Of a DNA stretch of 64,000 nt, positions 51,124 to 64,000 are shown piece after piece. The translations under genes and the position numbers were made by a program. The stretch comes from Prevotella sp. E9-3 (GTDB lineage Bacteria > Bacteroidota > Bacteroidia > Bacteroidales > Bacteroidaceae). Under the pieces are notes generated by a model. The model ran no database searches. It was not told the DNA's origin and was given only the letters and a program-made list of their open reading frames with translations. Each line of letters begins with the position of its first letter. Position 1 is the first letter of the stretch. The DNA lies in NCBI RefSeq assembly GCF_022024015.1, contig NZ_CP091786.1, positions 868,001 through 932,000 of the forward strand, read 5' to 3'.

Positions 51124-54100
51124 ATGAAGAAATTTTTTTGTATAGTAGCCTTGGCTATGGTATGCCTAATGGCCAGTGCAAAGCCCATTTCACAAGAACA
51201 GGCCCGACAGCGTGCTGCTGCGTTCCTTAAACTGCGCAATGACGTAAGAAAACTGGCGCCTGTGAGTCCTGCAAGATTGGCTCCTCGGCGAGCAGCATCA
51301 CTCTCGGCAGAACAGCCTTACTATGTTTTTGAACGTGGAACGAATGAGGGCTTTGTTATCGTGTCGGGCGATGATCAGACCATTGATGTGTTGGGCTATA
51401 GCGAAGACGGCACTTTTGACTATGAACAGGCTCCGCCAGCCCTTCGAGAACTGTTGGATGACTATGCCCGTCAGATAGAAATGATACAGGCCGGAAAGTC
51501 TGTGGCAGCTCCCGTTGTGAAGGCGGCGAACAGAAAGGCGATAGCTCCCTTCGTGAAGAGTAAATGGAGTCAGGGCGCACCCTACAACAACAAATGTCCA
51601 TTGGATGCCGGAAGTCGTTCGGTGACAGGTTGCGTGGCAACGGCCATGGCCCAGATTCTTTATTACAACCGTGAGAAGTCCGTCACCGAGACTCAGGCTG
51701 ATATGCCTGCTTATTCAACCTGGACAAAAGGGCTGAAAGTGTCGGGTATTGCAGCAGGAGCCCCTATAGACTGGGATAATATGAAAGACACCTACGGAAG
51801 TTCTGATACCGAAAAGCAGAAAACGGCTGTGGCCAATCTGATGCTCTACTGTGGCGTAGGCAGCAAGATGGACTATACTAACAGTGCGTCTGGCGCTCAA
51901 TCGTGGGATGCCTATCAGGCCATGAAGAACTATTTCGGTTATTCCTCAGCCAAATGGTATGACTACCAGAGCGTAACGAGCAACGAGCAGTGGGACGAGA
52001 TTGTCTATAATGAGATGGCTGCCCAGCGCGCCGTCTATATCAGTGGATCGAATGCCACCGTGGGTCATGCTTTTGTAGGATGCGGTTATGATGGTACCCG
52101 TTATTATATCAACTGGGGATGGGCCGGACAGAGTGATGGCTATTACTATCTGACAAATCTCACCCCAGGGCAGGGCCAGGGTACTGGTGGCAGTGCTGAC
52201 GGCTATAATGAGTACAAGCAGATTATTACCAACCTGGAGCCGGAAAACTATGAGGCCAAGGTGATGAGTTTTGCTGATGCGGCGGTGAAAAGACTTTGCG
52301 TAGAAAAGTGGGATGCTGATGGAGACGGTAAGTTTACCTATGGTGAAGCAGCCAAGGTGACCGACTTAGGCGATACCTTTAAAGGAAAGACCATCAAGAA
52401 CTTCAAAGAGTTATACTATTTCACGGGCCTCTCAACTATTGCTGATGATGCCTTCAATGGATGTCAGCAACTGGTGAGCGTACGCCTTCCCAAATCGATT
52501 CGTTATATCGGTGCACGCTCGTTTATGGGGTGTCAGAAAATGAATCAGCTGGATATCAGTGAAGGACTGCAAACCATTGGTGAGGACGCTTTCAACGGGT
52601 GTAAACTGCTGACGAGTGCTATATTGCCTGCAGAGGCATCTGCAATTCCTGCTCGTGCCTTCAAAGGATGTTCAGCCATTACCGAAGTGTCGCTGCCAGT
52701 CTCTGTAACTTCAATTGGTGATGATGCTTTTGCCGATTGTACAAAACTGGCATCTTTTGAGGTAAGCAGTTTCCAGCCTTCTGGTATCACGATGGGCACT
52801 TCAGTATTCGGTTCCATAGATCTTTCCAAGGCTACGTTGAGTGTGATGCCTGGTACGAAAGTGTTCTTCGCTTCTGCTGAGCAATGGAAAGAATTTGGCA
52901 ATATAGTAGAGAAACGTGAGCGTTCAGGCGGTAACTTTGCAACCTTGGAGGCTGGCAAAACCTATTATATCTATAATGTGGGTACCGGACGCTACCTGAC
53001 GAAAGGAGAAGCATACGGAAAGCAGGCTGTAGTGGGTGAAGAGCCGATGCGCTTTGATGTAAAGACCTCTGCAAGCCTGGGCGAGAATGTGTACTATCTG
53101 TCGTCTCCTGATACTGGAGTCAGTGGTAAGTATTTGTTCCGTACATCGACAGATAATAATGTGGGAGCTGGGGTGAAAGCCTGTTTCGTTGACGGCTCGT
53201 CACTGAATGGAAATGCTTATTGGAAGATAGTTCCTGTAGGTGACTTAATATATACTCTGCAGACTCCGTCGAATAGGTCTGACTATGAGGAAGGCCGTTT
53301 CTTAGGCATACAGACCGACCATGAGAGCAATGCGGCATCGCCAACTTTCGGTGCCTACTCGGATGTGGTATATGCCGAGCATCCGTTGAACTGCCAATGG
53401 CGTTTTGTGCTCTATGATGAGGCTATTGCTGCCCGTTATGAAACTGCTGAGAAACTGGCCTCACTTCTTGAAATTGCTATCAAAAATAATGTGAATCACT
53501 CAACAGAACAAGCTGTCTATGATAACGTAGAAAGCAGTTATGAGCAACTGCGAGAGGCAGTGAGCACATTACGCAAGAAACTGAACTTCATTGATTTTGC
53601 CAGCGATGAAGTCCGTGCTTTGTGTGTGGCCCGTTATGATCTTGATTATGACGGAGAATTGAGCATGGCAGAGGCAGCCAATGTAACCGACTTTGTTATC
53701 AGTTTTGAGAACAATAAAACGCTGGAGACCTTCGACGAATTCCAGTATTTCACCAATGTTCAGTATGTCTATGGCCGTACTTTCTACGGATGCGCGAATC
53801 TGAAGTCGATTACGCTACCTAAAAATCTTGAGAAGATTTACTACTATGCTTTTTATGGATGTAGGAGTCTGACATCGGTTACTCTTCCACGTTATGTCAA
53901 TACTATAGGCGCTAATAGCTTTGGTGGATGTACGGCATTAGCAGAAGTTCGTATTGAAGGTGATGTTCCGTTCGCTATTGAGACTACAGTCTTTGGCACT
54001 AAGTCGGCAGATGCATTCACCATCTATGTACCATTCGGCGAGAAAGAGAATTTTGAAGCAGCTGATGTTTGGAAGAATTATACCATCAAGGAAATGCGTG

Positions 54101-55800
54101 GCTATGCCAAACCCAAGCGTTCTTCCTTTGCCGTTGATAAGCCAGGATATTTCGTGAATGTCGCTACAGGCAAGATGATGAGTAAGGGCGAGGCTTATGG
54201 TACTCAGTCGGTGGTAGATCATAATGGTATGGTGTATCAGATGAAACGTATCAAGTCTATGCCGGAGGGACAGTATTATTTCTATTCGAACAATACTGGT
54301 AAGGACGGAAAAGTATTGTTTAGGGTGAGTACAGACTCAAAAGTGGGCGAAGGGGTGAAGGCTTGCTTCGTAGATGGAAGCTTGAAGGCCAGTGCCTACT
54401 GGAAAGTTGATTCTGTTGATACAGGTATTTATATTTTCAGCGTTCCTGAGACCGATGCGGAATATGTTGAAGGCCAGCACATGGGCGTTGATGAGAACCA
54501 TGAAAGTAGTGCTGCCAGTCCGACGTATGGTATCTATTGGGATCTCTATGGAACGGAGCCTGACTGTCAATGGGCATTCATTGCAGAAGAAGATATGAAA
54601 GCCGCAAAAGAATTTGATGCATTGGCTAACCAACTGAAACTGTTGCTGGAAACGGCTGCTCAGCAAGAAATAGATGCTCAGTCAGAGCAGCTTGTATATG
54701 ACAATGCTGCAAGTACGGCAGATGATATGGAAACCGCTATCAGTTCATTGCGTGATAAATTGCATTTCATCACCTTTGTGGAAGAACAAGTTCGCAAAGC
54801 GTGTCTGGCCAACTGGGATGCCAATGGCGATGAAGAACTGTCGTATGAGGAAGCTGCCGGCGTGGATGATATTGGAGAAGTGTTCCGTGGCATCTCGAAT
54901 GTAAAGCAGATAAGTGAACTGCGTTATTTCACATCGTTGAAGTCTATTCCGGAGAATGCTTTCCGTGGAGCTTCTGCTTTACAGACTGTAGTCTTGCCTG
55001 AAAACGTAGATACGATAGGAAAATACGCTTTCTTCAGTACAGGTTTACATTATCTGGTATTGTTGAACAATAAGAAAAAGGTTCCTTTCGGTTCAAGCAG
55101 TGTGCCAGGTAAGAGTACGGTATTCGTACCTGCCAACATGATAGATGAATATATGGCTGACGAACAATGGACATCAAAATCAATGATTACGGAATATACA
55201 GGGAAACCTGTGGTGACGGTGAATGCAAGTCGTGAGTATGGTCGAAAAGTTGCCACTGCAACCGTGATTGTGTTGGGTGCACCCATTGATGGCACCCCTG
55301 AATATGTTTGTGATGCCATTGCAGAACCGTCACAGCCTGTGGGAGAATATCCTGTTATTGTGAGTGCCGGTACGGTGACTACTCCTGATGCAACATTCCA
55401 GGATGGCGTGTTGACTATAGTACCTGCCACGCTCACTATTACTGCCAAGAACTGTCAGAGAAATATTGGTGAAGAGAATCCTGTCTTTGAAGTTGAGTAT
55501 AAGGGCTTCAGAAATAGTGAGACAGAAGAGGTGCTTATAGCAAAACCAGTGCTGACCTGCAGCGCTACTGCTGATAGTCCAGCTGGAGAATACGAGATTA
55601 CGGTGGGCTCAGCCGAAGCAGCAAACTATACCATTACCTACGTGCCTGGTGTGCTGACTGTTGTCGATCCGGCAGGTGTTCACGACCTGTCTGCTGACAG
55701 ATGGCAATCAGACAAGGTGACGGACTTGCAGGGTAGAAAGGTGAATACCCTGAAACGAGGTATTTATATAGTTGGCAACAAGAAAGTACTTGTCAAGTAA
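51124..55800 (+). CDS. Secreted C10 (streptopain-like) cysteine peptidase with calcium-loop, LRR and MBG modules
   Basis: The 1558-residue protein has a signal peptide (to MASA), a propeptide of the C10 type (GFVIVSGDDQTIDVLGYSED) and a mature peptidase with Cys170 in RSVTGCVATAMAQ, His315 in VGHAFVGCGYD and INWGWAGQSDGYY. After the peptidase come three modules. Each starts with an EF-hand-like loop (KWDADGDGKFTYGEA at about 396, then RYDLDYDGELSMAEA and NWDANGDEELSYEEA) and a run of BspA-type LRRs. Two of them are separated by lectin-like repeats (YYIYNVGTGRYLTKGEAYG, FVNVATGKMMSKGEAYG). Near the C-terminus are MBG-type domains (VTVNASREYGRKVATAT ...) and the tail LQGRKVNTLKRGIYIVGNKK. It is probably an exported protease held at the surface and targeting host or matrix proteins. 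Confidence 0.9.
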   Translation: MKKFFCIVALAMVCLMASAKPISQEQARQRAAAFLKLRNDVRKLAPVSPARLAPRRAASLSAEQPYYVFERGTNEGFVIVSGDDQTIDVLGYSEDGTFDYEQAPPALRELLDDYARQIEMIQAGKSVAAPVVKAANRKAIAPFVKSKWSQGAPYNNKCPLDAGSRSVTGCVATAMAQILYYNREKSVTETQADMPAYSTWTKGLKVSGIAAGAPIDWDNMKDTYGSSDTEKQKTAVANLMLYCGVGSKMDYTNSASGAQSWDAYQAMKNYFGYSSAKWYDYQSVTSNEQWDEIVYNEMAAQRAVYISGSNATVGHAFVGCGYDGTRYYINWGWAGQSDGYYYLTNLTPGQGQGTGGSADGYNEYKQIITNLEPENYEAKVMSFADAAVKRLCVEKWDADGDGKFTYGEAAKVTDLGDTFKGKTIKNFKELYYFTGLSTIADDAFNGCQQLVSVRLPKSIRYIGARSFMGCQKMNQLDISEGLQTIGEDAFNGCKLLTSAILPAEASAIPARAFKGCSAITEVSLPVSVTSIGDDAFADCTKLASFEVSSFQPSGITMGTSVFGSIDLSKATLSVMPGTKVFFASAEQWKEFGNIVEKRERSGGNFATLEAGKTYYIYNVGTGRYLTKGEAYGKQAVVGEEPMRFDVKTSASLGENVYYLSSPDTGVSGKYLFRTSTDNNVGAGVKACFVDGSSLNGNAYWKIVPVGDLIYTLQTPSNRSDYEEGRFLGIQTDHESNAASPTFGAYSDVVYAEHPLNCQWRFVLYDEAIAARYETAEKLASLLEIAIKNNVNHSTEQAVYDNVESSYEQLREAVSTLRKKLNFIDFASDEVRALCVARYDLDYDGELSMAEAANVTDFVISFENNKTLETFDEFQYFTNVQYVYGRTFYGCANLKSITLPKNLEKIYYYAFYGCRSLTSVTLPRYVNTIGANSFGGCTALAEVRIEGDVPFAIETTVFGTKSADAFTIYVPFGEKENFEAADVWKNYTIKEMRGYAKPKRSSFAVDKPGYFVNVATGKMMSKGEAYGTQSVVDHNGMVYQMKRIKSMPEGQYYFYSNNTGKDGKVLFRVSTDSKVGEGVKACFVDGSLKASAYWKVDSVDTGIYIFSVPETDAEYVEGQHMGVDENHESSAASPTYGIYWDLYGTEPDCQWAFIAEEDMKAAKEFDALANQLKLLLETAAQQEIDAQSEQLVYDNAASTADDMETAISSLRDKLHFITFVEEQVRKACLANWDANGDEELSYEEAAGVDDIGEVFRGISNVKQISELRYFTSLKSIPENAFRGASALQTVVLPENVDTIGKYAFFSTGLHYLVLLNNKKKVPFGSSSVPGKSTVFVPANMIDEYMADEQWTSKSMITEYTGKPVVTVNASREYGRKVATATVIVLGAPIDGTPEYVCDAIAEPSQPVGEYPVIVSAGTVTTPDATFQDGVLTIVPATLTITAKNCQRNIGEENPVFEVEYKGFRNSETEEVLIAKPVLTCSATADSPAGEYEITVGSAEAANYTITYVPGVLTVVDPAGVHDLSADRWQSDKVTDLQGRKVNTLKRGIYIVGNKKVLVK

Positions 55801-57616: not shown

Positions 57617-57680
57617 CTGCTATTTTATGGGTTATCCAAATATTTTTTTTCAAAGATTTTTGTTTTCTCAGAAAAATTAC

Positions 57681-57688
57681 TATTTTTG
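57681..57688 (+). promoter_or_regulatory. -7 box of the tubulin-like/actin-like operon
   Basis: TATTTTTG with TTTTTG about 18 bp upstream; the first gene starts 53 bp later. Confidence 0.6.
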
Positions 57689-57741
57689 CAATGGAATAAT
57701 GAATACGCTAACCGTTTATTGCTACAAATATAATGTGTAAC

Positions 57742-58095
57742 ATGAAAAGCTACTTTTGGATATTTATTATATGCACTCTGTTTTGTTTGTCATGTGGAAG
57801 CAGACAGGAGGCAATAGAGGATTTGCGTGTCTTGGTAGAAGATATTCGCACAAATGGCAATGAATATACTGCTGAGCAGTGGGCAGATGCCGAAGGTATC
57901 TTTGAAGAAGTGTGTGATGAGCTTGAACAGTATGAGTACACACAGGACGAGAAAACAGAAATCTCTCGATTGAAAGGAGAATATATGCTGGCAATCGGGC
58001 GTTGGAAGGTACAAGATAAAATGGACGTTGTTAGAGACGTGGTTGAGCAAGTATCTGGCGCTGTGAAAGGATTGACTGGCGAAAAGGAAAATTAA
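57742..58095 (+). CDS. Small helical lipoprotein, first gene of the operon
   Basis: ATG at 57742 gives MKSYFWIFIICTLFCLSCGS, a lipoprotein signal with Cys18; another ATG three codons upstream is possible. The mature 100 residues are acidic and helical (AIEDLRVLVEDIRTNGNEYT, EQWADAEGIFEEVCDELEQY) with coiled-coil character. Short lipoproteins of this helical type occur in many Bacteroidales; their function is not known to me. It is 21 bp upstream of the next lipoprotein gene, so both are probably co-transcribed. It may help anchor or seed the downstream system at the envelope. Confidence 0.75.
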   Translation: MKSYFWIFIICTLFCLSCGSRQEAIEDLRVLVEDIRTNGNEYTAEQWADAEGIFEEVCDELEQYEYTQDEKTEISRLKGEYMLAIGRWKVQDKMDVVRDVVEQVSGAVKGLTGEKEN

Positions 58096-58116
58096 ATAAT
58101 TCAATTATATAATCTT

Positions 58117-59556
58117 ATGGAAAAGAAACCATTTTTCGGAAGAGTCCTCCTGACCGCAGGAATCATGCTGTCAGGAGTAAGTCTATTGACCTGTTGTTGT
58201 AGTAGTGAACCATCCATTGATATGCCTACAGAGGTGAAAGCCTATTATGAGAAAGACTTTGTTTCTGCAGATGAGAAAGATGCTTTTTCGGCTTATTTTG
58301 ACTTATCGAATGGTATCATTGAGGCTTATAAGACCAATGCCGGCGCCGAACAGTTGATGAAACAAACTGTAAACCGACTGACCAGTGGCGAGAATTGTAC
58401 CGTTTACTCTATGGCTGATGACCAGATTGAAACCCTTGACCTGAAACAAACTGCTCTTTACAATAAAATTGTTGACGCCTCTTCCTATCAGCGTCAGATG
58501 GCCCCCATTGAAAAAACTCTCTCACAGATTGTGGCTGAATCAAAGAGCTCACTGCTCGTAACTGATTTTGAGGAGTACACTCCCGATAAGCGTATTCAGC
58601 ATGCCAGCTTTGCTGCGCCTTATTTCCAGAAATGGCTGCAGGCTGGTAAAGATATAACTTTCTTTGTGTTCAACTATAAAGAAGGAAAAGTAGATAAGCA
58701 TTTGTATTTTGTTGTTTTTGATAATAAACAGCATAATCTGCTGAAGTTGGTGCGCGAGTCAATGGGCGGTTCTATCCCCAATGGTGAGTTTACACTCTCT
58801 CCCGATGCTTATAGCTGCACAACAGAATATCCCAGTGCCACTAAGGGCGGCAACTACCACATGGCCGACGGCATGCTGGACATAGTGACCAACGTCAACG
58901 AAGACGGAACAGGCAACTGCTACACCAATTACGGTGAGGGCGAACGCGTGGAGTATTATCCCATAGGCGACGTATGGCAGAATATTCTGGCCAATGCCAA
59001 GGGCGCAGCTGAAGAAGGCAATGATCCTGTGTTTACAGACCTTTGGCGCAACCTGTTCTTTGACTTCTCTTGTCAGGATAGTTATATCATAAAGAAACTT
59101 GATGTACGTGTGACCAATGTTCAGAAAGACTTTGACAGTTTTTTGGCCAATAAATTGTTTGCAACTGATAAAGAAGCCTATTTCGCTCAATACGAGAGCG
59201 AAGAACTGTTGCCCGAACATAAAGGAACGGCACCGATTGCCGAAATCAAGGATATGTTTGTACTTGATCAGGACCTCTTTGATGAAACATTCCAGGCAAC
59301 AGCAGGTAAAAAGACAGAGCTAGGTGTTAAGTTCTCTACGAACTTTACTGGAACACCAGTAGGCGCTGAGGATACAGACTTACTGCGTATTGATGTAGTC
59401 ATTGCAGAAAGTGAGCCAAACCTCAGTCCACGTCTTGAAGAACTGTTCTCTTTCAATGGAAATAATAATCTGAAAGATGCTATTGCAGTGACTCTTCAGA
59501 ATTCTAATCCTCGTGGAACTATCATCTATACCTACTTTGTAAAGTTGGCAGAGTAA
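58117..59556 (+). CDS. Large lipoprotein of unknown function
   Basis: The 479-residue protein has a lipoprotein-like N-terminus with SLLTCCCSS (Cys26 the likely lipidated residue). The rest is soluble, beginning EPSIDMPTEVKAYYEKDFVS. Features include KSSLLVTDFEEYTPDKRIQH and ITFFVFNYKEGKVDKHLYFV at about 145-205, which read like alternating strands and helices of a Rossmann-type or vWA-like domain (DFE near the end of a strand), but this is weak. A second half rich in Asp/Glu ends with PRGTIIYTYFVKLAE. I do not recognise the family. It sits between a small lipoprotein and a three-helix membrane protein in the operon. Confidence 0.75.
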   Translation: MEKKPFFGRVLLTAGIMLSGVSLLTCCCSSEPSIDMPTEVKAYYEKDFVSADEKDAFSAYFDLSNGIIEAYKTNAGAEQLMKQTVNRLTSGENCTVYSMADDQIETLDLKQTALYNKIVDASSYQRQMAPIEKTLSQIVAESKSSLLVTDFEEYTPDKRIQHASFAAPYFQKWLQAGKDITFFVFNYKEGKVDKHLYFVVFDNKQHNLLKLVRESMGGSIPNGEFTLSPDAYSCTTEYPSATKGGNYHMADGMLDIVTNVNEDGTGNCYTNYGEGERVEYYPIGDVWQNILANAKGAAEEGNDPVFTDLWRNLFFDFSCQDSYIIKKLDVRVTNVQKDFDSFLANKLFATDKEAYFAQYESEELLPEHKGTAPIAEIKDMFVLDQDLFDETFQATAGKKTELGVKFSTNFTGTPVGAEDTDLLRIDVVIAESEPNLSPRLEELFSFNGNNNLKDAIAVTLQNSNPRGTIIYTYFVKLAE

Positions 59557-59598
59557 GAATAAAGAATCAATAATAACAAAACTTAAAATTTATAAATT

Positions 59599-59946
59599 AT
59601 GAACGGATCTGTTGTATCGGCCTATATTATCGGCCTAGTTGTTTTTCTGGTGCTAATGCTTGTGTCGGTTATTATAGCCAATAGTATTTCATACGAATTA
59701 GGTGCCAATCCTAAAGATAAGGCAAAGCGCAGAATGTGGTTCTGGATTATTTGCGCACTTGTGCCCATCTGTGTTTTCGGTATCAACTATTTTGCTGGTT
59801 ATCAGGGCATCAAAGTGCCTTCAAAGGCAGCTGCTTATATGACAGCAATGAGTATTTCTACAGGTGTTGCTACTGTGCTGTATATCGTTTGCGGAGTAGT
59901 TCTGTCGAAAATTTTCAACCATGGCAAATTGTCAAGCTGGTTCTAA
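59599..59946 (+). CDS. Three-helix inner-membrane protein
   Basis: The 115-residue protein has membrane helices at about 5-27 (YIIGLVVFLVLMLVSVIIAN), 46-68 (MWFWIICALVPICVFGINYF) and 80-105 (MTAMSISTGVATVLYIVCGV). A basic cytoplasmic loop (PKDKAKRR) lies between helices 1 and 2. There are no catalytic motifs. Gaps of 42 bp before and 85 bp after place it in the operon, where it is the obvious candidate to attach the cytoplasmic NTPases to the inner membrane. Family unknown. Confidence 0.75.
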   Translation: MNGSVVSAYIIGLVVFLVLMLVSVIIANSISYELGANPKDKAKRRMWFWIICALVPICVFGINYFAGYQGIKVPSKAAAYMTAMSISTGVATVLYIVCGVVLSKIFNHGKLSSWF

Positions 59947-60031
59947 TAGCTTGAGCTGTTTTTGAAAGCCAAAAATGGAAGAAGTAGTGAGAATTTTTTT
60001 GGAGAATCTGATAATTTGAAATAATAGATAA

Positions 60032-61690
60032 ATGGCAAAACTATTTGTAATAGCCATAGGCGGAACAGGCATGCGATGCTTGGAGTCGTTTGTTCACCTG
60101 TGTGCCATTGGCATGTTCGATAATCATGAAGTTGATATCCTTACACTTGATACTGACCAAAGTAATGGTAATAAGGGTAGGGTAGAAGAACTCATTGATA
60201 TATATAATAAGGTGAAGTCGAATGATGAGACGAATATTGACGGAGGTACTATTAACCGTGATACATTCTTCTCAGCTAAACTGAACCTCTATAAGTTCTA
60301 TACCAACTATGGAGACCAAAGCCGTAAATCGTTCAAGGTGCTTTCACATACAAGCAACAACGAGACGAAGGGTGAGAATAAGGATATTTCCGATTTGTTC
60401 TATGATGAGGCTACCGTTCAGGAATTTGAATTGGATCATGGCTATCGCGCTCAGACCCATTTGGGATCGATGCTGATGTATCACGGAATAATAGAGGCTG
60501 CCCGTAATGCAAAACAAAAAGGTGATAATGCTGAAATACAGGATCGCAACCTGAAGAGTTTCCTTGAGAAACTGCAGGAAGCCCAGGGCGATGCCCGTGT
60601 GTTCGTGTTTGGCTCTGTATTTGGCGGAACAGGTGCTTCAAGTATTCCCGTAATTCCTGTTGCCCTGCGTGATGCAGCCGAGATATTGACCGATGGCCAT
60701 ACACTCGATCTTACAAACGTGAAGTTTGGCGCAACATTGCTCACCAACTATTTCTCGTTCAATTCACCAAACTCACAGTATAAGGCATCGCAGAAGGTAG
60801 TGGCCGACTCAAACAATTTTGCATTGAATAGTCAGGCTGCTATGCAGTTCTATCAGGAAGATCCTACGGTTCGTTCTACTTATAAGCGCTTCTATCATAT
60901 CGGTTGGCCATTGCCAAAATTTGATGTAGGTAGTAAGGGCGATACCATCACGGGCGGACAGGAACAGAAAAATGCCTGTCATGTGGTTGAGTTGATGTGT
61001 GCCTGCGCTGCTTATGACTTCTTTACTGTTGATGATGCTGAATTGGATCGTAAGGAAGCTGCTTATTATTATCGTTCTATTGGTGATGAGGGTGGTGTAC
61101 TCACATTCCAGGGTAATGACTTCCTTACCAATGGCGTGCTGTTTGAGAATAAACTTGGTGCATTCTTCACATTCGCACACATGGTTCTCTCACAGAGTGA
61201 AGCTGCCTGGTCGGATGATGCTATTCCAACAATCGGCACACATGGATTTATTGCCAAATTTGCTACGCAGAATATTCACGACTATGATGGCATAAGCCTG
61301 AACCAGTGCAAGGAGATCAACGACTATCTGCGCCTCTTTGGATATAAGTTTGATAAAGAAAACAACATGATTAAGGGATGGATTTATCAGATTTACAACT
61401 CTGTGAAACCTGGCCGCTTCCTCTTTAATGAAACAGCTTTCAAGGAACTGCGTCAAGATATGAAGAGTATCAGCTGTGGTCAGTTGTTTATCGACCCCAA
61501 TCATAACTGGAGTAAGATTTCAGGTCTGATTAGTAAGAGCGATAACTCGGTAGATGAATTGATCAAGACTCTTACTGACGAGAAATCAAAGCCTCGTGTG
61601 GCCGACCAGTTGGTAAATACTACTAAAGAGAAGTTCTTGGCTCATATCTACAACGCCATCACTATCAATCAAAAGTTTGAACTCAAATAA
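60032..61690 (+). CDS. Tubulin/FtsZ-like GTPase
   Basis: The 552-residue protein starts MAKLFVIAIGGTGMRCLESF, a Rossmann strand followed by a GGTG loop as in the tubulin-like (Tubulin_2/FtsZl) families. The tubulin signature loop appears as FVFGSVFGGTGASSIPVIPV at residues 191-210 (GGTG at 198-201). The LTLDTDQSNGNKGR segment after the first strand corresponds to the nucleotide-contacting second strand. It is longer than FtsZ and lacks the FtsZ C-terminal tail. FtsZ-like families of this kind have been proposed to remodel membranes. The gene lies 12 bp upstream of the ATPase gene, so the two proteins are likely partners. Confidence 0.85.
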   Translation: MAKLFVIAIGGTGMRCLESFVHLCAIGMFDNHEVDILTLDTDQSNGNKGRVEELIDIYNKVKSNDETNIDGGTINRDTFFSAKLNLYKFYTNYGDQSRKSFKVLSHTSNNETKGENKDISDLFYDEATVQEFELDHGYRAQTHLGSMLMYHGIIEAARNAKQKGDNAEIQDRNLKSFLEKLQEAQGDARVFVFGSVFGGTGASSIPVIPVALRDAAEILTDGHTLDLTNVKFGATLLTNYFSFNSPNSQYKASQKVVADSNNFALNSQAAMQFYQEDPTVRSTYKRFYHIGWPLPKFDVGSKGDTITGGQEQKNACHVVELMCACAAYDFFTVDDAELDRKEAAYYYRSIGDEGGVLTFQGNDFLTNGVLFENKLGAFFTFAHMVLSQSEAAWSDDAIPTIGTHGFIAKFATQNIHDYDGISLNQCKEINDYLRLFGYKFDKENNMIKGWIYQIYNSVKPGRFLFNETAFKELRQDMKSISCGQLFIDPNHNWSKISGLISKSDNSVDELIKTLTDEKSKPRVADQLVNTTKEKFLAHIYNAITINQKFELK

Positions 61691-61702
61691 AGAAGACGCA
61701 AT

Positions 61703-64000
61703 ATGGCAGAATATAAACCATTAGTAATAGAAGTCGAACCGAAAAGCATGCCTGCCGGCGTGCAGACCAAATGGCAGGACTTTACGGCACATATGCCGAT
61801 CTTTACACGCGATATCATTACGCCGGCCATCAGTCTGGAATCGGGCGATGTGAATGCCATTGTTTCAGGCGTGCCCACAGCCTATGCACGTGCCAACCTC
61901 TTCAACCTTGCTATGAACTATGGCAAAGGAAACAATGAGGGAGCTCTAAACCTGAATGCTTATTATGCACAACTGGCCAGTGAGTGGCGTGGTTTCATTG
62001 CATGTATTGCTCTTGATCATCAGCGTATTGAGGTGGAGCGCGTGAAACTGGCTTATAGCGATGGCAAAGATTTTAAGGAAACAGCTAATATTTATGAGCC
62101 AAAGGGCGCCTTTGGTAATATGCTCTTTGACCGTAAAGTGCTTTGGAGTGACCTTGAAGCCCAAGGACCTGAGCGTGGCATTCCTTTTATCGATGTTATC
62201 AAGTACGACGGTAAGGTTGTTGGTGCTACTTCACCAGATAGCCTGTTGTTTACTTCCGTTTCTTATAAGGTGCAGCCTGGTAAGGAACGTCCGTTCGTAG
62301 ATTTTGCTTCAGGGCGTTTCATTGATCCGTTGAAGAACGATATGGTGGCTCATCAGACTTTGTCACTATATGCTTATGTACGTCATCTCATAGATAATAT
62401 AGATAAATTGTCTGCTTATTATGACGGACTGAAATCGCCTCTAGGTCGTGATCTGAAGCCGAACTATTCAAATTTGGTAAGCGTTCTGGAGTCATGGAGT
62501 ACCGAAATTGCCAAGTATGCCGAAGAACGTGGCTATAAACTGGAAACTGCAGCAATTCCTCAGGTCGAGACTTTCAAGAAGCCATTCTCGTTGGCATTCA
62601 ATTTCAAGAACCAACTCTATGGTATCAACGGTACCATCGTTACAGAATATCGTGATGGCGCTATTGAGTTTAATCCTAAGGAGTTGATGTTGCCAAGTGA
62701 TGCCGAGATAGCACGACTGATTATTCAGGGAGCTATGAAAGAAGGCGTTGACCGTACGTCTAAACTGCCTGTCTATGTGATGCCGGCAGAAAAGAAAGAC
62801 CGTACAGGTGCTGTGACCGGTACTGCATATTTTGCCCTTCCATTGAGCACATTGGGCGTTAGCGTTTTTGGTGATAATATCGGCGCATTGGTGGGACAGG
62901 CTTCAACAGGATCTGCTATTAAATCGCAGATGAAGGCTGTGTATTTTGAAGATAGTGAATACAATAATCTGGAGGTGAAACTTACTCTGCAGGTAGAAGA
63001 CGGAACTACACAGGAAATTCCAGTCGTTTATACTGTTAAAGGAGTGATCCGTAATGCAGATATCATTATCTGGCCAAATTTCATTTCGAAGCATTGGAAC
63101 CGTTACTATCTCTATTCTGAGATGCCTCATTATACTTTCTCACAGGACTTCCCCTTCCGTGCCGTTCCTTTTGTAGGTGATAAGGATAATGAGTTCAGTA
63201 TCATTACTGAGGATGATGAAACACCGCTCTATTTGGCAAAGGCTAATAAAGCTCAGAGTAACGAAACGAAGAATGTGAAGGTAAATCTTCATATTGAATC
63301 AAACGATAAGACAGCTGGTAATAAGTATAAGTACGAGATTTATGAGTCTAACCAACCTTATAAAGGCTTGAAACTGACAACATCGAACGATAAGCATGCC
63401 GGCTTCCTAATTGTTCGCTACGATGTAAATATCAATTCAGAGTATCCCCATATTGTTACTGAGGAACCTCGGAACAAGGTACGTGTGGGTGTTGACTTTG
63501 GTAGTACAAACACCTCAGTGGCTTTCTGCAACAGCAATACAGGAGAAGTGTCGGGCTTGCAGTTTAAAAACCGTCGTGTGTCACTTCTTAGTATTGGCGA
63601 TGATGAAAACGGCGTGGCAGACGAGAAGCATCTGTTGTTCTTCCAGTCGAATCCCATCCGTTCAAATGCTATTAAGAGTGTGCTGACACTTCACGATCCC
63701 AACCGATTGTCAATGACCAACGGGGCATTGCTCACTACAGAATTGCGTCAGGTTGTTAAGGGCGGATTCCCGTGCTTCAGCAGTAACTTGCCTATTGCTT
63801 CGGTAACTGAGAAACTAATCCAGTTGAACTGTGCTAAGTGTGGCCCTGTGAATCAGGTGCACAATATGAAGTGGGTTGATGATGATATTGATAAAGCATA
63901 TAAGGTAGCTTTCTTGTCGTCGTTAATGCAGCAAGTATATGCTGAACTCTTTGATCGTAATGAACGCTTCTATCCTGAATGTGTTATTTGGTCATTCCCG
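61703..64000 (+). CDS. Actin/Hsp70-fold ATPase with large N-terminal region (partial, 3' end outside window)
   Basis: The frame from ATG at 61703 is open for 766 codons to the end of the window. Residues 1-590 are unlike known domains (MAEYKPLVIEVEPKSMPAGV ...), with several beta-rich stretches. At residue 595 VGVDFGSTNTSVAF begins, the phosphate-1 motif of the ASKHA (actin, Hsp70, sugar kinase) fold, with Asp598 and the GSTNT loop. Only the first part of that domain is in the window, so the phosphate-2 and adenosine motifs cannot be checked. It follows the tubulin-like gene by 12 bp. It could be a cytomotive actin relative or an Hsp70-like chaperone. Confidence 0.85.
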   Translation, partial: MAEYKPLVIEVEPKSMPAGVQTKWQDFTAHMPIFTRDIITPAISLESGDVNAIVSGVPTAYARANLFNLAMNYGKGNNEGALNLNAYYAQLASEWRGFIACIALDHQRIEVERVKLAYSDGKDFKETANIYEPKGAFGNMLFDRKVLWSDLEAQGPERGIPFIDVIKYDGKVVGATSPDSLLFTSVSYKVQPGKERPFVDFASGRFIDPLKNDMVAHQTLSLYAYVRHLIDNIDKLSAYYDGLKSPLGRDLKPNYSNLVSVLESWSTEIAKYAEERGYKLETAAIPQVETFKKPFSLAFNFKNQLYGINGTIVTEYRDGAIEFNPKELMLPSDAEIARLIIQGAMKEGVDRTSKLPVYVMPAEKKDRTGAVTGTAYFALPLSTLGVSVFGDNIGALVGQASTGSAIKSQMKAVYFEDSEYNNLEVKLTLQVEDGTTQEIPVVYTVKGVIRNADIIIWPNFISKHWNRYYLYSEMPHYTFSQDFPFRAVPFVGDKDNEFSIITEDDETPLYLAKANKAQSNETKNVKVNLHIESNDKTAGNKYKYEIYESNQPYKGLKLTTSNDKHAGFLIVRYDVNINSEYPHIVTEEPRNKVRVGVDFGSTNTSVAFCNSNTGEVSGLQFKNRRVSLLSIGDDENGVADEKHLLFFQSNPIRSNAIKSVLTLHDPNRLSMTNGALLTTELRQVVKGGFPCFSSNLPIASVTEKLIQLNCAKCGPVNQVHNMKWVDDDIDKAYKVAFLSSLMQQVYAELFDRNERFYPECVIWSFP

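Follow-up and report, generated by a model that had tools for sequence, protein, structure and literature searches.

The FtsZl1 (Tubulin_2) family was named by Makarova and Koonin in 2010, and in the sections of their paper covered here (PMC2875224) its members are described as having vWA, OmpA and GTPase genes nearby, a role in membrane remodelling being proposed for them, and whether they form filaments is left open by the authors; Bacteroides caccae appears in the FtsZl1 list of their figure 1. The passages covered of Kaur et al. 2020 (PMC7159879) describe the DO-GTPase/GAP1 conflict systems (GTPase-centric, System 2), and DO-GTPases are predicted to act in membrane stress in the part covered of the PSP paper (PMC11237479). 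In this study, we analyzed an operon of Prevotella sp. E9-3 that begins near the end of a 64,000-nucleotide stretch of contig NZ_CP091786.1 (positions 868,001 to 932,000, the whole of which is called the window below) and runs past it. Its genes, named here lp1, lp2, tm3, tub, askA and askB (Table 1), place a tubulin-like protein (tub) beside a giant Hsp70-type ATPase of the ASKHA fold (askA), behind lipoprotein and membrane-protein genes. A first-pass annotation of the window had proposed that such genes form an envelope-spanning machine with two nucleotide-driven switches or filaments, serving secretion, envelope remodelling or defence. Our reading, which is tentative and which we hold at a little under an even chance, is that these genes make up an accessory operon, passed on horizontally, for an envelope-surveillance complex.

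Loci were found with two patterns made from relatives of the window's tub, and the best 80 of 174 confirmed loci were analyzed; the conservation of the core therefore covers fairly close relatives of tub only. The denominator for each gene is the number of loci, out of the 80, with enough sequence on that side. The gene tables are rough, since automatic gene calling missed genes such as the GTPase of L007 and the MscL of L148. The neighbours of tub were present wherever they could be looked for, with lp2 in all 70 loci, tm3 in all 78, askA in all 79 and askB in all 70; the order of the core genes was never broken in any locus, and all five core genes were visible in 68 of the 80. Among these relatives the conservation of the neighbourhood goes beyond chance. 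By their titles the loci are all from Bacteroidota save L032, which is labelled as a Saccharibacteria metagenome-assembled genome; its tub is identical to that of the Bacteroidales locus L033, and it is probably a contaminant or binning error. Duplicates such as this pair were kept in the counts.

The structure model of tub has the FtsZ/tubulin GTPase-domain fold. The GGTG previously noted at residues 198-201 does not vary in any of the 51 aligned rows, nor does a second, T1-like GGTG at residues 10-13. The stretch compared with the glycine-rich T4 G-box (GGGTG(S/T)G) reads FGGTGAS; the GGTG core is invariant in the same 51 rows and the flanking residues differ. Sequence profiles did not make the connection to FtsZ (hhalign against Bacteroidota FtsZ, 0.5%), so that the link came from the structure model, and the tub profile found no relevant match among PDB sequences. 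With 21.2 against a cut-off of 27, tub misses the gathering score of Pfam Tubulin_2, and close homologues, for example P0004, carry PF13809. Two further genes above the Pfam Tubulin cut-off, both FtsZ-like, were recorded elsewhere in the window's genome (G000:C1:580758-581231 and C1:2363748-2364218).

In askA, VGVDFGSTNTSVAF begins at residue 595, and the remaining ASKHA motifs are present as well; phosphate-1 (D598/G600/N603), phosphate-2 (D957/G959/G960/T962/D964) and adenosine (G1114/K1115/G1116) residues are invariant in 37 of 37 sequences. Fold searches with the model assigned the ATPase domain to the Hsp70-type fold; the regions outside it were barely covered by these searches, and no substrate-binding domain was recognised there. 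Pfam gave no match for askA up to E 1, HSP70 included, and among PDB sequences the askA profile had seven weak matches, all to the Hsp70 family (E 0.5-1). Models, motifs and a conserved neighbourhood all support the combination, in one operon, of a tubulin-fold protein and an Hsp70/actin-fold ATPase, so that the checks by which the first-pass annotation could have been refuted did not refute it. A low-confidence Gly/Asn-rich insert with DPF/DAF-type repeats occupies askA residues 817-896 (L002:8152-8391, just past the end of the window), and at least three [DNS]PF copies were found in this insert in only 2 of 37 aligned sequences.

The N-terminal 350 or so residues of askB are conserved and are possibly a degenerate ASKHA domain, their sole sensible partial match being to the Hsp70 ATPase domain, in its later half; a full HSP70 domain (E 2e-87) was found in one of the 36 askB-family members scanned (from L050, as judged by sequence). 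Further on, askB has a transmembrane (TM) segment near residues 837-860, a Pfam Big_2 domain at 875-947 and, by eye, an FN3-like stretch, and its last 60 residues contain two FxLEK copies (5e-5 in shuffles of the tail, a test chosen after the motif had been seen). In lp2, DLSNG stands at residues 62-66 and TD at 149-150, with D62 and D150 invariant and S64 and G66 near-invariant in 35 sequences; the resulting DxSxG resembles a degenerate vWA metal site, compared with DxSxS in the metal-ion-dependent adhesion site. No relevant PDB match was found with the lp2 profile. About 14 of 74 lp2 proteins seem to be held by a basic N-terminus and a TM segment rather than by lipid (judged by eye from 18 such rows of a script), which points to the inner membrane for lp2. 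A crude hydropathy scan counted three segments in 56 of 78 tm3 proteins and four in 22, including the window's own, of which the last two overlap. Single-member Pfam matches in the lp2- and askB-family scans, HSP70/MreB and Big_2 excepted, were taken as chance.

The same genome has a paralogous operon in locus L084 (G000:C1:2296000-2314000), at L084 424-12142, equivalent to G000:C1:2296423-2308141, in which a lipoprotein with a vWA-like DASGS, a TM protein, a tubulin-like protein and an ASKHA protein of 1127 residues follow in the same order. When compared by hhalign, the two operons match at 99.9% for tub, 99.2% for askA and 82% (E 1e-5) for lp2 and the vWA-like lipoprotein. They differ in that BLAST identity between the tubulins is only 26% and in their downstream genes, which in the paralogous operon encode a TM protein and a Trypsin_2 protein. 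This type of tubulin-ASKHA pair recurs in five other genomes (L086-L090). Following the ASKHA gene, an OmpA-like gene in L086 (1153-1812, E 2e-5) and a MotA/ExbB-like gene in L090 (835-2319, E 3e-4), both below cut-off, recall stator pairs.

The genes beyond the core fall into cassettes, which were counted in the 65 loci whose sequence runs on for 8 kb or more past tub (the GTPase count includes L007, corrected by reading the sequence). Among these, 47 carried TerD, 15 carried a Zn-finger, DO-GTPase-like gene and a GAP1-like gene after askB, three had neither and none had both. One TerD gene was present in 12 of the 47 loci and two in 35, and their identity is unambiguous (PF02342, E 1e-58). 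The one GTPase tested against Pfam matches the DO-GTPase models slightly under cut-off; in the family of its partner gene, 7 of 11 members match GAP1-N2 (best 1e-7) and 4 of 11 match GAP1-M. A TerC-like cluster, of which one member was tested, occurs in 14 of the 80 loci. A quick tub tree was built from 78 of the 80 loci and four other rows, leaving out L027 (tub in two open reading frames) and L079 (cut off). The cassettes are clustered on this tree and do not form single clades, with 11 changes for TerD (shuffled mean 26.3) and 8 for the GTPase (14.0), numbers that are inflated by the scoring of 15 unknown-cassette rows as lacking both; branches with support of at least 95 force nine and five changes, respectively. 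On this tree the tub of the window falls into one group with L004, L005 and L007 (SH-aLRT 99), of which L004 and L007 have the GTPase cassette and L005 is cut off.

A clustered short membrane protein, the putative anchor, was found in 42 of the 47 TerD loci. By end motif, none of the anchors combines OmpA and CW_7, matches being to OmpA in 29 and to CW_7 in 13, and these predicted anchors are one scaffold bearing two unrelated wall-binding domains. Their tails contain, before the TM segment, 92 loose F[DN]LxK-type motifs compared with 4.8 expected (maximum 13 in 500 shuffles), and the strict motif is somewhere in all 42 anchors. TerD proteins open with the same motif, a looser pattern occurring once or more within the first 45 residues in 90 of 91 (no shuffle control), and motif density is 0-0.13 per 1000 residues in the core families versus 8.1 in anchors. 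A more specific proposal, which in our judgement is unlikely to be right, is that the tub GTPase and askA ATPase would form an obligate co-assembly on the inner membrane with interchangeable OmpA, CW_7 or Big_2 anchors, that outputs would dock by the shared FDLxK strand motif, and that anchors would mimic the TerD N-terminus, so that TerD proteins could exchange between one another and the anchor. The analysis suggests FDLxK as a concrete candidate docking motif, by which TerD proteins may be tied to the cell wall. If docking of this kind were true, the system would be a plug-in envelope alarm, and to our knowledge no alarm of such design has a counterpart.

The five open reading frames described for the window are where they had been placed, all in one direction, with intergenic gaps of 21, 42, 85 and 12 bp. 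When the sequence was extended past 64000, the end of askA was reached and a sixth gene, askB, was found in the assembly with a 4-bp overlap, which corrects the earlier count of five genes to six. A promoter-like pair precedes lp1 where a single promoter had been supposed; it is a pattern match in the sequence, and we take its TTTG and TATTTTTG to resemble the Bacteroides -33/-7 promoter consensus. The lipoboxes also noted earlier look non-canonical by eye (CLSC in lp1, LLTC/LTCC in lp2), and a loose pattern does match 55 of 74 lp2 proteins, the window's own included. All six reading frames of the operon are open.

Table 1. Features of the operon in window coordinates, with positions in locus L002 where these were used
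Feature	Position	Strand	Description
Promoter-like pair TTTG-N18-TATTTTTG	57659..57688	+	Upstream of lp1; pattern match
lp1	57733..58095	+	120 residues, small lipoprotein, DUF6565-like
lp2	58117..59556	+	479-residue lipoprotein, possible degenerate vWA domain
tm3	59599..59946	+	115-residue membrane protein, three TM helices by eye
tub	60032..61690	+	552-residue tubulin/FtsZ-superfamily protein, Tubulin_2-like
askA	61703..65665 (= L002:5704-9666; window ends 64000)	+	1320 residues, Hsp70-type ATPase domain at about 591-1182
askB	65662-68715 (= L002:9663-12716), beyond window		1017 residues; read in assembly
Terminator-like hairpin	68748-68786 (= L002:12749-12787)		16 pairs, 3' of askB; pattern match

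Upstream of the operon is a gene for a SulP-type transporter and downstream of it one of MscL type; both lie on the opposite strand (names by eye). The SulP-MscL spacing is 92-189 bp in four same-genus genomes versus about 11.3 kb here. A full-length tub match was found in 2 of 296 genomes across the phylum and in 2 of 48 of the same genus, the window's own included in both counts; a distant tubulin match was found in 14 more of the 48, and the window's genome contains a gene of each kind, the distant one in its paralogous operon. The only IMG/VR match (L155), whose contig is classed there as viral, is a relative of the operon lying downstream of a MobA-type relaxase and a tyrosine integrase, and it looks like a mobilizable element rather than a phage. 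Because occurrence is patchy, SulP and MscL are neighbours elsewhere, and a relaxase and an integrase stand next to one relative, we read the operon as probably accessory and mobile. A phage origin was rejected after no match was obtained in 50,697 phage records, as was a plasmid origin, for which only distant cyanobacterial plasmid matches were found (5 of 72,556 records). A defence hotspot between SulP and MscL was likewise unsupported, two long inserts there being metabolic by eye.

The lp1 product matches PF20203 below cut-off (E 0.0015; 19.2 bits, cut-off 24.5), and in 7 of the 80 loci a homologue lies upstream of lp2, as found by phmmer in six and by clustering in L055. Since two same-genus genomes that lack the operon at their SulP locus also have lp1-like genes there, lp1 may be a resident gene. 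At operon-free SulP loci, an lp1-like gene is followed by a patatin-like gene (by eye) in L145 (2793-4058) and L146 (2000-3259), with glycine-cleavage-like genes beyond. Within the window, positions 51124-55800 encode a protein of 1558 residues in which, by eye, a C10-family protease seems to be joined to BspA-type leucine-rich repeats.

In an envelope-surveillance complex of the kind we favour, lp2, facing the periplasm and perhaps vWA-like, would report envelope damage or attack together with an anchor that faces the wall, which would be TM-OmpA or TM-CW_7 in relatives and the TM-Big_2 part of askB in the window's operon. Through tm3 the signal would cross the inner membrane and reach tub and askA, a cytosolic complex that would assemble or disassemble with its nucleotide cycle and, in most relatives, drive an output module of TerD proteins or of the DO-GTPase-like/GAP1 pair. 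The window's operon groups with the GTPase/GAP1 branch; its variant seems to have lost the output module, its wall anchor has perhaps moved onto askB, and it may work through askB alone or be decaying. The term envelope-spanning fits the parts list, which has a lipoprotein, a three-TM protein and, in relatives, wall-binding partners. The locations of the parts, sensing, assembly and a stress or conflict role are what we infer from these data. An envelope-stress or conflict response is the most likely role, because the partners TerD, TerC and DO-GTPase/GAP1 are known or predicted for such roles, the last in the parts covered of PMC7159879 and PMC11237479 and the Ter proteins reportedly.

Several observations weigh against this reading, for which every functional claim is drawn from genomic context. 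No match to PF02342 was found in the window's genome by a search that was positive in 2 of 14 named control genomes, and the GTPase and GAP1 profiles of relatives matched nothing there (no positive control); the output may therefore be absent or of a kind not recognised, and the operon might be a remnant, although its six reading frames are open. The case for askB as an ASKHA protein is weak (hhalign to DnaK 6%, E 0.006; PDB Hsp70 match E 0.25), and no phosphate motifs were recognised in it by eye. Its FxLEK motifs lie past its TM segment, on the opposite side from those of the anchors, which makes the parallel uncertain. The vWA assignment of lp2 is also weak, with hhalign to bona fide vWA proteins at 0.7% and a vWA Pfam match in none of 35 members. 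The operon (43.1%) and the next genes (43.0%) differ little in base composition, the window having 45.6%, and this gives no sign of recent arrival. SulP-MscL is no fixed landmark, as other genes lie between the two in three same-genus genomes, metabolic ones in the two long inserts, and in G319 and G340, both single-contig genomes, SulP and MscL lie far from each other. Finally, no PADLOC model matches any of the six proteins better than E 0.016; PADLOC and NCBIfam matches of the operon proteins are weak and were taken as chance.

The PADLOC result also counts against a dedicated anti-phage system, in which infection or its products would trigger assembly of tub and askA and lead to growth arrest or death before phage release. 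This alternative, which we consider somewhat unlikely, would agree with the patchy distribution, with the integrase and relaxase upstream of the L155 copy and with the naming of DO-GTPase/GAP1 as conflict-system parts in the passages covered of PMC7159879. It would also suit a stand-alone gene present in 7 of the 80 loci, all of them from Pedobacter (L008, L009, L016, L019, L020, L028 and L074), where it stops 11-46 bp short of lp2; the tested member of its cluster is HSDR_N/PD-(D/E)XK-like (HSDR_N, E 4e-15). However, the operon has no nuclease or clear toxin, and no adjoining defence genes were recognised by eye at the window's locus (flanks of relatives were not scanned). SrfABC was dropped as a candidate, as the literature matches listed link nothing of SrfABC to the operon.

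The catalytic T7 loop of FtsZ and tubulin has the form NxDxx(D/E). A regular expression for motifs of this type found none in tub, and the tub model beyond residue 376 has no alignment to FtsZ; both speak against a membrane-remodelling or vesicle-forming cytoskeleton with tub filaments, to which we give a rather small chance. Such a cytoskeleton, as proposed for FtsZl1, would accord with the FtsZ-like fold of the tub model and with the vWA, OmpA and GTPase neighbours and the Bacteroides caccae entry in the sections covered of PMC2875224, whose authors nevertheless leave filaments open. A secretion or assembly device, with the Hsp70-type ATPase of askA moving or folding envelope proteins, would account for lipoproteins and a membrane protein sharing one operon, but we regard it as very improbable: neither a channel nor an outer-membrane barrel was recognised among the core genes, no cargo family conserved over most loci was found and, as noted for askA, no substrate-binding domain was recognised. 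The analysis provides for this predicted class a precise parts list, in which five core genes are fixed, two outputs exclude each other and wall anchors are swapped; gene order, folds, motifs, patchiness, exclusive cassettes and wall-binding domains are its computed results. The class is apparently untested, as far as the literature matches listed show.

Among known systems, the Ter stress-response systems, reportedly treated by Anantharaman in 2012, share TerD and the TerC-like cluster with the relatives of the operon and differ from the window's genome in its lack of a TerD match. The FtsZl1 systems resemble the operon in placing an FtsZ-fold GGTG protein beside membrane, vWA and OmpA proteins and GTPases; in contrast, the word Hsp70 is absent from the main text of PMC2875224 and TerD from the sections covered, and most FtsZl1 members are described there with a long coiled coil, whereas no extended coiled coil was seen in the tub model (longest helix after residue 360 at most 21 residues). 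In the passages covered of PMC7159879, Kaur et al. likewise speak of systems that combine GTPases, tubulin homologues and an HSP70 chaperone, with FNIII and wall-binding parts, and a DO-GTPase-like and a GAP1 gene follow askB in the 15 relatives mentioned, although neither gene is in the window's operon. In those passages TerD is not joined to tubulin, as it is in the 47 TerD loci. The first-pass annotation knew of no characterised system with this set of genes, and none is among the literature matches listed (preprints and most subscription papers lying outside them), but overlapping predicted systems are in print (PMC2875224 and PMC7159879), and the tubulin-Hsp70 pairing as such is anticipated by Kaur et al. 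2020. In the covered parts of those papers we found neither the Bacteroidota core with its giant ASKHA protein nor a TerD cassette of the exclusive kind, an exchange of OmpA and CW_7 or the motif. With the parts list, the earlier predictions of FtsZl1 membrane work and of tubulin and Hsp70 conflict systems become directly testable in tractable Bacteroidota.

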